Shown: positions 5,491 through 11,366, numbered from the stretch's first letter. The stretch: 64,000 bases of DNA from Fimbriimonas sp. (GCA_031292555.1 JARLGV010000104.1:1-64000); one strand, 5' to 3'. Translations and numbers: made by a program. Notes: generated by a model from the sequence alone, not told the origin.

Positions 5491-6438
5491 CTAAGCGCCA
5501 CGTACCAAGCCCACTGATTGCAGTGTGACAATCTGGTTCAGGGTGTGCCTCAATGACCAGACGTCGCCGTGAACGATGGCCCCGATTTCAGTCAGTGTCT
5601 CGGCATATCGATGTGCGGATCTCCCGCCCACAATGATCGGCATTCCAGGGCCAAGCAAGCGCCGCAATATGCGCAACTCCTCACACAGGACTTCTTCATT
5701 CGTTGGGTAGACGACGCTGATGGCAATGGCCCGCACGGACGCCTGCAATCCGGCCAAAACAATGGATTCCGCCGGCATGTTGGGCCCCAGATATACGACC
5801 CCCCACTCGGCGGTTGAGGCAGCAATGGCGGCCATTAGGGCGCCAATCTCGTGAAGCTCGTTTCGAAGTGTTGTGATGAGCAGTTTCGGGGCGCGGAGCG
5901 ATCCGGGCATAGACGTTTTGACCTTATAGAGGAACGTCTTTAGCACCGCAGACATCATATGTTCCTGGGCAATACCGAGGGAGTGGTTGAGCCAGCGAGC
6001 CTCCACGTCGGCAATCAAGGGAATAATGACACGATCCAAGAGATGCTGAATGCCCATGGCGGCATGGCCGCGCACCAGGACCTCTTCCAACCCTTCTGGA
6101 TCGAATCGCAGAATTGCGTTCTGGCAAGCCACTAGGAAATAGTCGGCGCCAAGTGGCCTGGAATCCAAGCCAATGGCTGGAGCAGTCCTCATGAACGATG
6201 ACCCCAGTTCTCGGAGCTGTTCGGTAGGCAATTGTGCGACTTGGCCGATCGGATGGCCGGTTGCGACGATTCCCTTGAGCAACAATAATCGCTCGGCATC
6301 GTCTTCGCCATACACCCGGCGATTCGTGTCTGTTCGACCAGGAGACAGGGCGTTATAGCGGCGCTCCCAAGCTCGGATCGTGTGCTGAGATACGCCGGTC
6401 AATCCCGACAGGGTTCCAATCGTATAGGTTAGGCTCAC
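5491..6438 (-). CDS. MerR-family regulator with cobalamin-binding domain (CarH/LitR-like), GTG start
   Basis: N-terminal MerR HTH 'TIGTLSGLTGVSQHTIRAWERRYNALSPGRTDTNRRVYGEDDAERL'; W-x9-EH (WLNHSLGIAQEH) and ExHxxG (ELHEIG) cobalamin motifs. Confidence 0.9.
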   Translation of the reverse strand: MSLTYTIGTLSGLTGVSQHTIRAWERRYNALSPGRTDTNRRVYGEDDAERLLLLKGIVATGHPIGQVAQLPTEQLRELGSSFMRTAPAIGLDSRPLGADYFLVACQNAILRFDPEGLEEVLVRGHAAMGIQHLLDRVIIPLIADVEARWLNHSLGIAQEHMMSAVLKTFLYKVKTSMPGSLRAPKLLITTLRNELHEIGALMAAIAASTAEWGVVYLGPNMPAESIVLAGLQASVRAIAISVVYPTNEEVLCEELRILRRLLGPGMPIIVGGRSAHRYAETLTEIGAIVHGDVWSLRHTLNQIVTLQSVGLVRGA

Positions 6439-6591: not shown

Positions 6592-7068
6592 TTGACCTAT
6601 TTCATATTGCTTCTGTTCTTGGTGGGGTGTCTTTCGATTGGAGCGTTGGGTGGCTACTGGACCGGCACATCGGTGAGAACCTGGTATGTCGATCTTCGTA
6701 AGCCTTCCTGGAACCCTCCTTCCTGGGTATTTGCCCCGATGTGGACATTGCTTTACCTGCTCATGGGGACGTCTGGCTGGATAGTGTGGCGGCATGAGGC
6801 GTTCGACACACTCGCGGGAGCGTTGTTCTTGGCACAACTCGCGCTCAATCTCTCCTGGTCCTGGTTCTTCTTTCTTAAGCGCCGCCCGGATCTCGCATTT
6901 GCGGAGGTCCTCCTCCTTTGGCTTGCCATTGCGGTGACATTGGTTGCCTTCTGGAGAGTCGATCCATTCGCGGGAGCCCTCCTCTTGCCCTATCTGGCTT
7001 GGGTGACGTTTGCCTCGGCTCTAAACGGTGCGGTCGCCCGCTTGAATCCGAACCCAAGTCGGGCCTAA
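6592..7068 (+). CDS. tspO: TspO/MBR family tryptophan-rich sensory protein
   Basis: 158 aa, five TM segments, 'KPSWNPPSWVFAPMWTLLYLLMGTSGWIVW...AQLALNLSWSWFFF'; TTG start. Confidence 0.92.
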   Translation: MTYFILLLFLVGCLSIGALGGYWTGTSVRTWYVDLRKPSWNPPSWVFAPMWTLLYLLMGTSGWIVWRHEAFDTLAGALFLAQLALNLSWSWFFFLKRRPDLAFAEVLLLWLAIAVTLVAFWRVDPFAGALLLPYLAWVTFASALNGAVARLNPNPSRA

Positions 7069-7310
7069 GTCCCTATCCGAGTTCGCTGGTCGGCTCCAAG
7101 ACGGACTAAGGCTGCATCCGGCACTGAGTATGCCGCCCAGAGGGAAGACGCTGTTGGAGACGACAAATGCCGGCGCCCAAGCCCAATTGGTTCGCCATAG
7201 CAAGTGTCGCTTACACGGTTCAGCCCGTGTCCACCATTCCAATGACATGGAAATCTTGGCTGGTTGTGATGGTGTCAGATCCGTACAATCTCGGCCAGTC
7301 AGGAAGTCGA

Positions 7311-8429
7311 ATGCCAAATATGCAGTTTCCCAATTTGGATCCCATTCCGATCCCGGCGCCGATCTGGTTGATGAAGGTTCTCAGCCTGTTGACGCTGACT
7401 CTACACTTCTTTGCGGTCCAGATTCTCATCGGCAGTCTGGTCGCCGTTATCTATTTCAGCCTCAAGTCCAAGGGCCAAGGCGCCTCGGCCAATCAGGTCG
7501 CCGCACTTGCCGTCGCCCGCAGACTACCGATCGTGATGACTTTCGTGATCAACCTCGGCGTTCCGCCGTTGTTGTTTGCACAGGTGCTTTATGGGAGGGC
7601 CCTGTACACCAGCAGCGTGCTGATCGCCTGTCAGTGGATCGCCGTGGTCTTTTTGCTGATGGGTTGCTACTGGCTCCTCTATCGAATTGCGGATCGAACC
7701 GGCCTTGGGAAGCCGAGCCATTGGCATGCTCTTGGCGCACTGGGCCTGGCTGCTATCGTGGGCCACATCTACGCCACGAATATGACCCTGATGCTCCGTC
7801 CCGAAGTCTGGCAAGCGATGTACGCCAAGACCGCGACGGGCTTCCAGATGCCGCCAAACGACCCGACTTCCGAAGCACGGGTCACCTTTATCCTGGTCGG
7901 CGGATTGCTGGTCGGCGGTTTCTGGCTTACCTTGCACAGCCGGCTGAAAACGATTTCGGATGAAGCGGCAAGCGTCCTGCGGTCGACCGGGTCGGTGTTC
8001 GCAGTGATCGGCGCCATTGCCGAATTGGGTGTCGGGTACTGGGCATATAGCGTCCAGCCGTCTGCGGTGACCGATGGCTTGCATTCCACGTTCTACCAAG
8101 TCTCGATCGGGATTTGGGCGATCGGATATGTGCTGGCCCTGCTGGTTGCCGGCCTCCAGGTTCTTAAGAAAGCGACCACCGCCTTATTGTCGACCATCGG
8201 CGGGCTCGGCGCTTTCCTCGGCATTGCCGGAGCGGTGATCGTACGAGACGGAATCCGAGACGCAACCCTGAAACTGAAGGGCTGGGATATTTGGCTTCGA
8301 ATTGAGAACTCGAACTGGTTCGTCATCCTGCTTTTCGTGATCCTCTTTGTCGCCGGCCTGGTTGCGATTGGCTGGCTGCTTTCGGTCATGAAGGCCGCAA
8401 AACCCATTACTGAGAAGGTGAATTCATGA
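7311..8429 (+). CDS. Multi-TM CydA-like membrane protein of respiratory cluster
   Basis: ATG at 7311 with AGGAAG upstream (ORF track starts at 7167). Hydrophobic; TM1 'LTLHFFAVQILIG' parallels 'ISHFAVGGGLY' of the 9993 protein. Followed by overlapping Rieske gene. Confidence 0.7.
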   Translation: MPNMQFPNLDPIPIPAPIWLMKVLSLLTLTLHFFAVQILIGSLVAVIYFSLKSKGQGASANQVAALAVARRLPIVMTFVINLGVPPLLFAQVLYGRALYTSSVLIACQWIAVVFLLMGCYWLLYRIADRTGLGKPSHWHALGALGLAAIVGHIYATNMTLMLRPEVWQAMYAKTATGFQMPPNDPTSEARVTFILVGGLLVGGFWLTLHSRLKTISDEAASVLRSTGSVFAVIGAIAELGVGYWAYSVQPSAVTDGLHSTFYQVSIGIWAIGYVLALLVAGLQVLKKATTALLSTIGGLGAFLGIAGAVIVRDGIRDATLKLKGWDIWLRIENSNWFVILLFVILFVAGLVAIGWLLSVMKAAKPITEKVNS

Positions 8430-8911
8430 GCAAAGAACCAACGGCTGTCCTACCGACGGAACCCGACGAAAACGGGGTGACTCGTGCCCAATTCATAAAA
8501 GTTGCGGTCGGTGGAATGTGCCTCGCTTATGCGGCGGCTATTGGCTATCCGGTCTACCGCTACCTGAATTCGCCGGTCGAGCGCGAGGCTGCGCTGGCGG
8601 CGATCAAGGATGTGACGCTGGCAGGAGCCGACAAGCTCGAACTGGGAAGTGTGCTGCTTTTCAAATTCGGTCCCTACCCATCGATGCTGATTCACCACCG
8701 CGACGGGAAATGGGTGGCGTTCGACGCCGTTTGTTCGCACCTGGGATGCACCGTTCAATACCATCCGGACCTGGACAAGATCGTCTGCGCGTGTCACGGA
8801 GGCGTTTACGATGCCTATACCGGTGAGAACGTTAGCGGGCCCCCTCCCAAGCCGCTTCGCAAATTCAATGTGAAAGTAGGTTCTGGATCCGTGTTGGTTT
8901 CGAGAGTTTAG
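8426..8911 (+). CDS. Rieske [2Fe-2S] iron-sulfur protein (bc1/b6f type)
   Basis: 'CSHLGCTVQYHPDLDKIVCACHGGVYDAYTGENVSGPPPKPL' = CxHxGC...CxCHGG; N-terminal TM. Confidence 0.96.
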   Translation: MSKEPTAVLPTEPDENGVTRAQFIKVAVGGMCLAYAAAIGYPVYRYLNSPVEREAALAAIKDVTLAGADKLELGSVLLFKFGPYPSMLIHHRDGKWVAFDAVCSHLGCTVQYHPDLDKIVCACHGGVYDAYTGENVSGPPPKPLRKFNVKVGSGSVLVSRV

Positions 8912-8912
8912 A

Positions 8913-9980
8913 ATGGCTAAGATCTTCGAATATCTGGATGAGCGGCTCTCGATCACCGAACTGCGCAAGTTCGGCGAGAAGAAGGCCGTTCCGCTCCACA
9001 AGCAGTCTTTTTGGTACTACTGGGGTGGAATCTCGCTTTTGTGCTTCCTGGTGCAAATCGTCACCGGGGTAATGCTGATCATCTACTACAAGCCCGGACC
9101 GGATGCCTATAACTCGGTTCGGTCGATCACGTACGACGTCGAATTCGGATGGCTGATTCGGTCGGCGCACAGTTGGGCGGCAACGATCTTCCTGGTTTCC
9201 ATCTTCGTCCACATGTTCTCGGTCTACTTCATGAAGGCCTATCGGAGCCCTCGTGAGTTCGGCTGGTGGTCAGGCATCGCGCTCTTAATCCTCGGATTGC
9301 TTTTCGGCTTCAGCGGCTACTTGCTTCCGATGGATCAGCTTTCCTTCGTGGCGACCAAGGTCGGCTTGGCCATCCCCGAAAACATCCCGGTCGTCGGTCA
9401 CGCGATTGCGAACCTGATGCGCGGTGGTTACGAGGTCTCGGAAATCACGGTTCAGCGGTTCTTTGCTTGGCACGCCGTGGTTCTTCCCCTGATCTACATC
9501 CCGCTTTTGATGTTCCACCTTTGGCTCGTGCAGAAGCACGGCAATGCGGTGCCCCCGAGCGAAGAGGCAAAGCCGGAGAAAGAACGGATGACGATTCCGT
9601 TCTTCCCGAACTTCTTGATGAAGGACCTTGCGCTTTGGCTGGTTACGCTCAACGTGATCGCCTTCTTTGCCTCGATCTTTCCTCAGGACATTGGCAAGAT
9701 CGCCGATCCCCTTGGGCCGGCGCCGGTTGGCATTCACCCCGAGTGGTACTTCATGAGCTCGTTCGAGACGCTGAAGATCATTGGAAAGCTTATCCCTGGC
9801 ACGATCGGCGAAGCGGTTGGCATCACGATCTTTACTCTCGGTCTTGTTCTGTGGGCTCTCATCCCCTTCTACGATGTTCGGTCATTGGCCGGAAAGCGGG
9901 GAAGGCTGGCGACTTACTTCGGGCTATTCTGCCTTGCCGTACTTATCGTTACGACACTGCTCGGCTACGTAATGGCCTAG
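8913..9980 (+). CDS. Cytochrome b (bc1/b6f type, fused N- and C-terminal domains)
   Basis: 355 aa; heme-ligand helices 'RSAHSWAATIFLVSIFVHMFSVYF' and 'FFAWHAVVLPLIYIPLLMFHLW'; 'DPLGPAPVGIHPEWYFMSSFETLKII'. Confidence 0.96.
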   Translation: MAKIFEYLDERLSITELRKFGEKKAVPLHKQSFWYYWGGISLLCFLVQIVTGVMLIIYYKPGPDAYNSVRSITYDVEFGWLIRSAHSWAATIFLVSIFVHMFSVYFMKAYRSPREFGWWSGIALLILGLLFGFSGYLLPMDQLSFVATKVGLAIPENIPVVGHAIANLMRGGYEVSEITVQRFFAWHAVVLPLIYIPLLMFHLWLVQKHGNAVPPSEEAKPEKERMTIPFFPNFLMKDLALWLVTLNVIAFFASIFPQDIGKIADPLGPAPVGIHPEWYFMSSFETLKIIGKLIPGTIGEAVGITIFTLGLVLWALIPFYDVRSLAGKRGRLATYFGLFCLAVLIVTTLLGYVMA

Positions 9981-9992
9981 GAATCTAATCAC

Positions 9993-11366
9993 ATGAATTA
10001 TCCGAATTGGGAAGTACCTGGCATTGGGTTGCCGTGGGTTATAGGAATCATTGCGATCTTCCACATCATGATCTCCCATTTTGCGGTGGGGGGCGGCCTT
10101 TACCTGGCGATGGCGGAAAGAAAGGCGATGAAGGAGGGAAGGACCGACTGGTTTCCGCTTCTGGAGCGCCATTCGAAGTTCTTTCTCATCCTCACCGGCA
10201 TCTTCGGAGCCGTCTCGGGCGTCGGCATCTGGTTCGCGATTGGCCTCATTCAACCGGAAGCGACCAGCACGCTGATCCATAACTTCGTATTTGGATGGGC
10301 CATGGAGTGGGTCTTCTTCATGGTCGAGCTAACCTCCGCGATCGTGTACTACTACACATGGAATCGCATCCCGCAGGCTCTCCACCTTAAGGTCGGTTGG
10401 CTCTATGCGATCGCGTCCGTGTGTACGCTGGTCATTATCAATGGCATCCTCACATTCATGCTTACGCCTGGCCAAGCGTGGCTAAGTGTGGCAGGGACAG
10501 GAAACGAATCGGCCTACTTCTGGAATGCGTTCTTCAACCCAACGTATTGGCCAAGTCTCGTTCTCCGCATTCTGGTGTGTCTGTCGCTTGCCGGAGTTTG
10601 GGCTCTCGTCACTTTCTCTCGCTTGGACGAGGCCACACACGGCGACTCCAAGGTCAAACTGGTACGTTGGAGCACCTCCTGGCTCGCTCCGGCGTTCATC
10701 CTCATGCCGTTCGTCTTTGCGTGGTATGCGGCGATGGTGCCAGCCACCAACAAGCATCTCCTTGAACTGGGCATGTCGACCATCGGTTCCGGCTCATTCA
10801 CTCAGATCACCCGCGTTGTACTGATGTCGGTGATGAGTACGGCAACGGTTGCGGGAGTCGCGTATCTGTTCGCCTACAAGTATCCGAGAGACTTCAGTCC
10901 GGGCCATGCAACCGCGATCCTCTTCTTGGCCCTGATCGCTACCGGCTCGACGGAATATGCTCGCGAGGCGATTCGTAAGCCGTATGTGATCGGCAGCCAC
11001 ATGTATTCGAACAGCGTTCGCGTCCGGGAGGTCGCCCAGTTTAACAAGGAGGGGTACTTAACCCACTCGTTGTGGGCGCCGAAGGACATGACGTTGGCGA
11101 TGGACGTTGGACGCACCATGTTTCGTGGGCAGTGCATGAGTTGTCACACCATCGGAGGATATCGTTCGATGAAGCACTTCCTGGAGGAGCGCGACTACAA
11201 GGCGATCGGCAATGTCCTCAAAATGCTGCACGAGAACAAAAAGGACTCGCCCTACCATAACTTCATGCCTCCAGTCGTCGGAACGCCTGAGGAGATTCTG
11301 GATTTGCAGATCTACCTGGCAGCCTTGAATCCGCCGCCAAACAAGGGAGCCGTCGCCAGCCGATAG
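9993..11366 (+). CDS. CydA-like cytochrome bd-superfamily membrane protein with C-terminal c-type heme domain
   Basis: 'FHIMISHFAVGGGLYLAMAERKA...FGWAMEWVFFMVELTSAIVYYYTW' TM helices; C-terminal CMSCH at 11133-11147. Confidence 0.8.
   Translation: MNYPNWEVPGIGLPWVIGIIAIFHIMISHFAVGGGLYLAMAERKAMKEGRTDWFPLLERHSKFFLILTGIFGAVSGVGIWFAIGLIQPEATSTLIHNFVFGWAMEWVFFMVELTSAIVYYYTWNRIPQALHLKVGWLYAIASVCTLVIINGILTFMLTPGQAWLSVAGTGNESAYFWNAFFNPTYWPSLVLRILVCLSLAGVWALVTFSRLDEATHGDSKVKLVRWSTSWLAPAFILMPFVFAWYAAMVPATNKHLLELGMSTIGSGSFTQITRVVLMSVMSTATVAGVAYLFAYKYPRDFSPGHATAILFLALIATGSTEYAREAIRKPYVIGSHMYSNSVRVREVAQFNKEGYLTHSLWAPKDMTLAMDVGRTMFRGQCMSCHTIGGYRSMKHFLEERDYKAIGNVLKMLHENKKDSPYHNFMPPVVGTPEEILDLQIYLAALNPPPNKGAVASR

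Follow-up and report, generated by a model that had tools for sequence, protein, structure and literature searches.

A conserved four-gene cluster of Fimbriimonas in which Rieske and cytochrome b genes lie between two CydA-like genes, a candidate joint bc and bd-type respiratory enzyme

The A-R-B-C locus and its four proteins

A cluster of four genes, here termed A, R, B and C, occupies positions 7311-11366 of a 64 000-nucleotide stretch of DNA from Fimbriimonas sp. (GCA_031292555.1 JARLGV010000104.1:1-64000; hereafter the window), a bacterium whose nearest named relatives, judged by protein C, are Armatimonadota and whose genome measures 6.46 Mb with an estimated completeness of 100%. All four genes lie on the + strand and encode, in this order, a CydA-like protein, a Rieske protein, a full-length cytochrome b and a second CydA-like protein bearing a cytochrome c domain (Table 1). 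They are packed as tightly as originally predicted, with a 4 bp overlap of A and R (8426/8429), a gap of 1 bp between R and B and one of 12 bp between B and C. A start of A at 7167 was ruled out, since homologs align from approximately residue 1-6 of the protein starting at 7311. We consider it probable that the four products form one respiratory membrane enzyme, in which a bc module is joined to a c-heme-type oxidase of the bd superfamily, thereby uniting two respiratory enzymes that usually occur apart.

Table 1. Genes, motifs and key residues of the A-R-B-C locus and its upstream neighbours (positions in the window)
Feature	Position	Strand	Description
Gene A	7311 (ATG)..8429	+	372 amino acids; CydA-like partner (CydA'-like), nine predicted transmembrane helices
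Gene R	8426..8911	+	161 amino acids; Rieske [2Fe-2S] protein, N-terminal membrane anchor; PF00355 2.6e-12
Gene B	8913..9980	+	355 amino acids; full-length cytochrome b; PF00033 6.1e-46, PF00032 1.1e-7
Gene C	9993..11366	+	457 amino acids; CydA-like (eight transmembrane helices) with C-terminal, predicted periplasmic cytochrome c domain; PF01654 3.7e-16
A His32 codon	7404..7406	+	First transmembrane helix (LTLHFFAV); invariant in 54/54 aligned A homologs
Rieske cluster motifs of R	8732..8797	+	CSHLGC ... CACHGGVY; Gly at the position of the bc1 Ser
PEWY motif of B	9738..9749	+	Qo site; residues 276-279; invariant
C His24	10062..10064	+	IFHIMIS; equivalent of E. coli His19 / Geobacillus His21, high-spin heme ligand; invariant
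C Glu105	10305..10307	+	Equivalent of E. coli Glu99, oxygen-site glutamate; invariant
C Glu325	10965..10967	+	Equivalent of E. coli Glu445 / Geobacillus Glu378, second high-spin heme ligand; invariant
CMSCH motif of C	11133..11147	+	Heme c attachment; residues 381-385; C381, C384 and H385 invariant in 50/50
C Met425	11265..11267	+	Likely sixth ligand of heme c; invariant in 50/50
MerR regulator	5491-6438	-	With B12-binding domain (CarH/LitR-like)
TspO gene	6592-7068	+	Just upstream of A

The original prediction had assigned a CydA-like fold to both flanking proteins, and this was confirmed by Foldseek, which matched A and C to CydA/CydB structures with a probability of 1.00 and thereby ruled out an unrelated fold. 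The AlphaFold model of C (predicted local distance difference test score, pLDDT, 86.9) consists of eight transmembrane (TM) helices followed by a C-terminal domain; its top 10 PDB matches are all CydA (TM-scores 0.54-0.60), and C aligned to canonical CydA by hhalign with a value of 3e-13. A profile of 50 C relatives matched Geobacillus CydA (5doq) over TM1-5 (7.8e-11) and again around Glu378, whilst the C-terminal domain matched cytochromes c by profile. In E. coli cytochrome bd, His19 ligates heme d and Glu445 ligates heme b595, whilst Glu99 points towards heme d (PMC8585947, PMC6853902). Across 50 aligned C sequences, on which conservation was judged, the equivalents of all three residues are invariant, as are E112 and R328, which align with E. 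coli Glu107 and Arg448, and these five positions are kept even where A and C occur as a distant pair lacking R and B (see below). H131 is likewise invariant across four phyla and in the distant pairs. By alignment, the b558 ligand His186 is absent from C, its position falling on Leu191/Arg192, and the Q-loop quinol site of canonical bd is also missing. Both CydA-like proteins had been proposed to keep a histidine in TM1, which holds for A (H32) and fails for the residue named in C: H29 (ISHFAVGG) is Gln or Leu in relatives and was rejected as a heme ligand, the conserved TM1 histidine of C being H24.

The CMSCH motif noted at the C-terminus of C proved invariant together with Met425. Because C has eight helices, with positive charges in its odd loops (positive-inside rule), the heme c domain is predicted to be periplasmic, on the same side as the N-terminus, so that the head of the Rieske protein could reach it. 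The c-type heme is confined to C within the cluster, as had been claimed, since no other open reading frame with a CxxCH motif lies from A to C, and no dedicated gene for a cytochrome c1, a cytochrome f or a diheme c subunit was found there.

For protein A, the AlphaFold model (pLDDT 92.4) has nine TM helices and best matches in the PDB the CydA chains 8b4o_A and 5doq_A (TMq 0.68), followed by CydB, whilst a Pfam search gave no match. In profile-profile comparisons (hhalign) A resembled C (1.7e-10), with weak similarity to canonical CydA (0.0026) and a value of 0.18 against CydB, and the alignment contains no counterparts of the CydA active-site glutamates. Protein A is best read as a CydA-type partner occupying the position of CydB, an arrangement for which Nitrospirota and Nitrospinota offer a parallel in their CydAA' pairs (PMC10839748, PMC12342949), and would be a degenerate CydA paralog standing in for CydB.

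The predicted identities of R and B, a Rieske protein and a full cytochrome b, were borne out by Pfam (Rieske; Cytochrome_B plus Cytochrom_B_C), and together they possess the hallmarks of a bc complex: a Rieske protein, and a cytochrome b with four heme histidines and a PEWY motif. B combines b6 and subunit IV in one chain, its heme histidines 86/100/187/202 and PEWY being invariant in 43/43 sequences. The cluster ligands of R (C103, H105, C121 and H124) are invariant or nearly so across relatives. In yeast, the Ser of the CHGS motif raises the Rieske redox potential by ~130 mV (PMC12954380). This position is Gly in every readable R relative, and since the potential-raising Ser is replaced, the cluster of R is likely of a low-potential, menaquinol type. 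The N-terminus of R (8426-8520) bears a twin-arginine (TRRAF) signal in most relatives; the window and its three closest relatives (loci L002, L003 and L013) have a single Arg there (TRAQF, SRLGF, SRASF and SRLNF), so that export of R may differ in these four.

Gene order and distribution

Among 85,000 species genomes scanned, 69 loci with C were found. The survey of gene order that the original prediction had proposed gave a clear result, the order A-R-B-C being found in 42/42 contigs carrying all four genes, often with 4-bp overlaps, which is not chance. These carriers belong to four phyla, the Armatimonadota, Verrucomicrobiota, Acidobacteriota and Chlorobiota, and include Bryocella elongata and Candidatus Thermochlorobacter, an aerobic phototroph. 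In none of the 42 contigs does an open reading frame with CxxCH, other than C itself, occur between A and C; some Acidobacteriaceae have R and B separated by one or two further genes (for a short-chain dehydrogenase and a four-helix protein), which lack heme motifs. On the tree of C the A-R-B-C members form a single clade with 100% support in the Shimodaira-Hasegawa-like approximate likelihood ratio test (SH-aLRT), in a quick search with long branches among distant rows. Distance correlations among A, R, B and C of 0.88-0.93 are not taken as proof, as species kinship alone could yield them.

The original prediction had regarded the occurrence of the flanking proteins without Rieske and cytochrome b as counting against it. 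Such occurrences are common, in Desulfobulbaceae, Planctomycetota, Krumholzibacteriota, Gemmatimonadota and others, including other Armatimonadota, but A and C stay together there and keep the same heme ligands, which suggests that the pair on its own is a stand-alone c-type oxidase and does not in itself tell against the combined enzyme, so that the objection holds in part. C may hold more c-hemes in these pairs, with eight CxxCH motifs in Desulfobulbaceae and two in several other groups, and two Verrucomicrobiota genomes possess both the four-gene and the two-gene form. The counts, which are unrooted, suggest that A-C is the basic unit and that one branch either acquired or lost R-B. In Desulfobulbaceae (L053, L055, L056, L058 and L080) the A-C pair and canonical cydAB are arranged head-to-head, mostly with an Rrf2 regulator between them, and the long tail of C adds another seven CxxCH motifs. 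The proximity of cydAB and Rrf2 points to an oxygen-related setting, which we count in favour of a single oxygen-reducing enzyme.

The specificity of the R-B module was surveyed in 201 Armatimonadota genomes, counting a cytochrome b as of this type at an identity of at least 52%; identities ranged from 52 to 67%, followed by a gap down to ≤41%. Besides the host, 19 genomes encode such a cytochrome b, which adjoins C in 18 of them. The exception (genome G122; L101 1681-7397) has R-B without A and C, preceded by a monoheme cytochrome c gene and followed by one for CcmF, and possesses canonical bd oxidases elsewhere in the genome. This pattern, with C adjacent in 18/19 cases and a separate cytochrome c in the remaining one, is expected if the c domain of C normally accepts the Rieske electrons.

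The same observations bear on the idea that the operon encodes two independent enzymes, one consisting of the Rieske protein and cytochrome b, the other a cytochrome c oxidase formed by A and C, with a soluble cytochrome c as the link between them. The many A-C pairs without R and B agree with it, as does the genome with R-B and a separate monoheme cytochrome c. Yet every contig has R and B placed between A and C, often with those short overlaps, no soluble cytochrome c gene lies in the cluster, and the bc module would be left with no c-type subunit of its own, so that we judge this arrangement quite improbable. In the genus of the host the cluster is patchy, being present in 1/8 other genomes, and such an accessory distribution would suit a detoxifying quinol oxidase whose bd-like site mainly reduces something besides O2, such as nitric oxide (NO) or peroxide; peroxidase activity and activity towards NO have been described for canonical cytochrome bd (PMC4899803). 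It would be odd, however, to invest in a Q-cycle module for such a function, and the neighbourhood contains no NO-related sign; the proposal appears very improbable indeed.

A quinol:O2 oxidoreductase with a Q-cycle as the favoured interpretation

If A, R, B and C do form one enzyme, a quinol, probably menaquinol, would be oxidised at the Qo site of B, with one electron travelling from heme bL to bH and back to the quinone pool, and the other from the Rieske cluster to the heme c in C's periplasmic domain. This second electron would then reach the pair of high-spin hemes that H24, E105 and E325 are predicted to hold within the membrane, still in C, and O2 would be reduced to water there. The whole would be a quinol:O2 oxidoreductase adding a Q-cycle to bd-type oxygen chemistry. 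With no other c-type cytochrome in the cluster, heme c of C most likely replaces cytochrome c1. The combined bc/CydA-like supercomplex put forward in the original prediction gains support from the CydA/CydB folds, the sole c-heme on C and a gene order kept across four phyla; from sequence and models we infer its physical assembly, as we do heme occupancy, the electron path and O2 as acceptor.

Several observations weigh against this interpretation. The position of E. coli CydA Trp441 is occupied by a Glu (Glu321) in all C proteins, and an invariant Arg324 accompanies it, a consistent change at the oxygen site. The host possesses one heme-copper oxidase, in an operon resembling alternative complex III (ACIII)/caa3, and a second Rieske/b6/IV operon, and it has no CydA-type protein other than those of the A/C locus. 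A heme-copper oxidase was also found in 25/26 A-R-B-C genomes tested first and in 15/16 further Armatimonadota, hence in 40/42 carriers in addition to the host, and heme c could feed that oxidase instead. A general link between the cluster and the absence of other oxidases was accordingly rejected.

These data favour the main rival reading, in which the enzyme is no more than a quinol:cytochrome c reductase. In this reading A and C would form an inactive bd-like membrane anchor whose c-heme substitutes for c1, and a soluble carrier would take the electrons on to the caa3 oxidase; the loss of the active-site glutamates in A is consistent with it. A mere anchor, however, would have no need to preserve H24, E105, E112, H131, E325 and R328 unchanged in four phyla, and this strict conservation of oxygen-site ligands, which extends to distant A-C pairs having no bc module, weakens the reductase reading. 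One carrier (G074, ~98% complete) has the cluster and no heme-copper, canonical bd or other CydA-type match, which speaks against a mere reductase but is no more than suggestive; the genome encodes superoxide dismutase. On the other side, G074 could be an anaerobe, or its oxidase could be missing only through an assembly gap, and a NiFe hydrogenase large subunit (closest to the Vhu type) is encoded near its cluster (L102 52-1512). On balance, a reductase without oxidase function seems unlikely to us.

The favoured single enzyme has a more far-reaching form, an obligate bc-bd supercomplex in four phyla that runs a Q-cycle and sends the Rieske electron directly via the CydA-fused heme c to a bd-type oxygen site. 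This we propose tentatively, as a possibility we would rather doubt than assert; if true, the enzyme would represent an as yet undescribed bd-type oxidase whose proton yield is raised. To our knowledge, complex III/oxidase supercomplexes so far known end in heme-copper oxidases. Cytochrome bd is regarded as a quinol oxidase that bypasses complex III and conserves little energy, and bd-type respiration would be more strongly coupled if its oxygen site received electrons from a Rieske/cytochrome b Q-cycle. The conserved A-R-B-C unit would also serve as a model for the c-heme bd families, which are still largely uncharacterised, and the proposal is testable since the type strain Bryocella elongata DSM 22489 carries the cluster.

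Relation to known systems and genomic surroundings

Enzymes of the OR-C family, which reportedly goes back to Murali, Gennis and Hemp in 2021, have a CydA core with oxygen-site ligands and a c-type heme but no quinol site. Protein C, a CydA with a c-type heme and no quinol site, resembles them, whereas A-R-B-C differs in carrying its own Rieske and cytochrome b genes between two bd-like genes. The locus is best read as encoding a bd-superfamily oxidase of an apparently OR-C-like, c-heme kind that is coupled to a bc module of its own. The bd superfamily has been split into qOR, OR-C and OR-N (PMC13189123), the OR-C family being named also in PMC10839748. For the OR-N CydAA' oxidases the proposed electron donor is cytochrome c (PMC10839748), an OR-N5 pair is located downstream of an alternative complex III (PMC12342949), and in Nitrospira supercomplexes of complex III and a bd-like oxidase (III/IV) were suggested from expression and gene clustering (PMC6606698). 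The locus shares with OR-N CydAA' of Nitrospirota and Nitrospinota the presence of two CydA-superfamily paralogs, but differs in that a Rieske/cytochrome b module, encoded within the pair, serves as the complex III partner and its c-heme is fused to CydA.

Compared with canonical CydAB, C shares the CydA fold and the two-heme oxygen site, but lacks the b558 histidine and the Q-loop, has a heme c domain in place of the ninth TM helix, and is accompanied by a CydA-like partner rather than a recognisable CydB. As in bc1/b6f and the bcc-aa3 supercomplexes, there is a Rieske protein and a cytochrome b with PEWY and four heme histidines, and a complex III that would be joined to an oxidase; unlike in these, there is no c1 or f, the oxidase is of the bd type instead of heme-copper, and the single-chain b has a b6-like heme spacing. 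Alternative complex III-caa3 systems likewise combine quinol-oxidation and oxidase genes in one operon, although ACIII subunits are unrelated to R and B, and the ACIII-like/caa3 genes of the host are a separate locus. No description of a bc-bd supercomplex, of the OR-C gene context or of the four-gene form was found in the literature searched, which excluded the defining 2021 OR-C paper, so that an earlier mention is possible. What sets the locus apart is the fixed four-gene unit with a c-heme fused to CydA and no c1, the OR-C and OR-N families being already known.

Upstream of A lie TspO and MerR-B12 genes (Table 1). A related MerR-B12 gene (53% identity) is found upstream at L013, where TspO is not conserved. 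TspO, the MerR-B12 regulator and an alcohol dehydrogenase were rejected as members of the system, as they are not conserved beside the cluster, save for MerR-B12 in L013. Elsewhere in the host (contig C98; L075 1096-5114), the second Rieske/cytochrome b6/subunit IV set lies beside a GltD-like flavoprotein with ferredoxin-type cysteines. This combination is reminiscent of the Rieske/b complexes of anammox bacteria, which have been proposed to make NAD(P)H.

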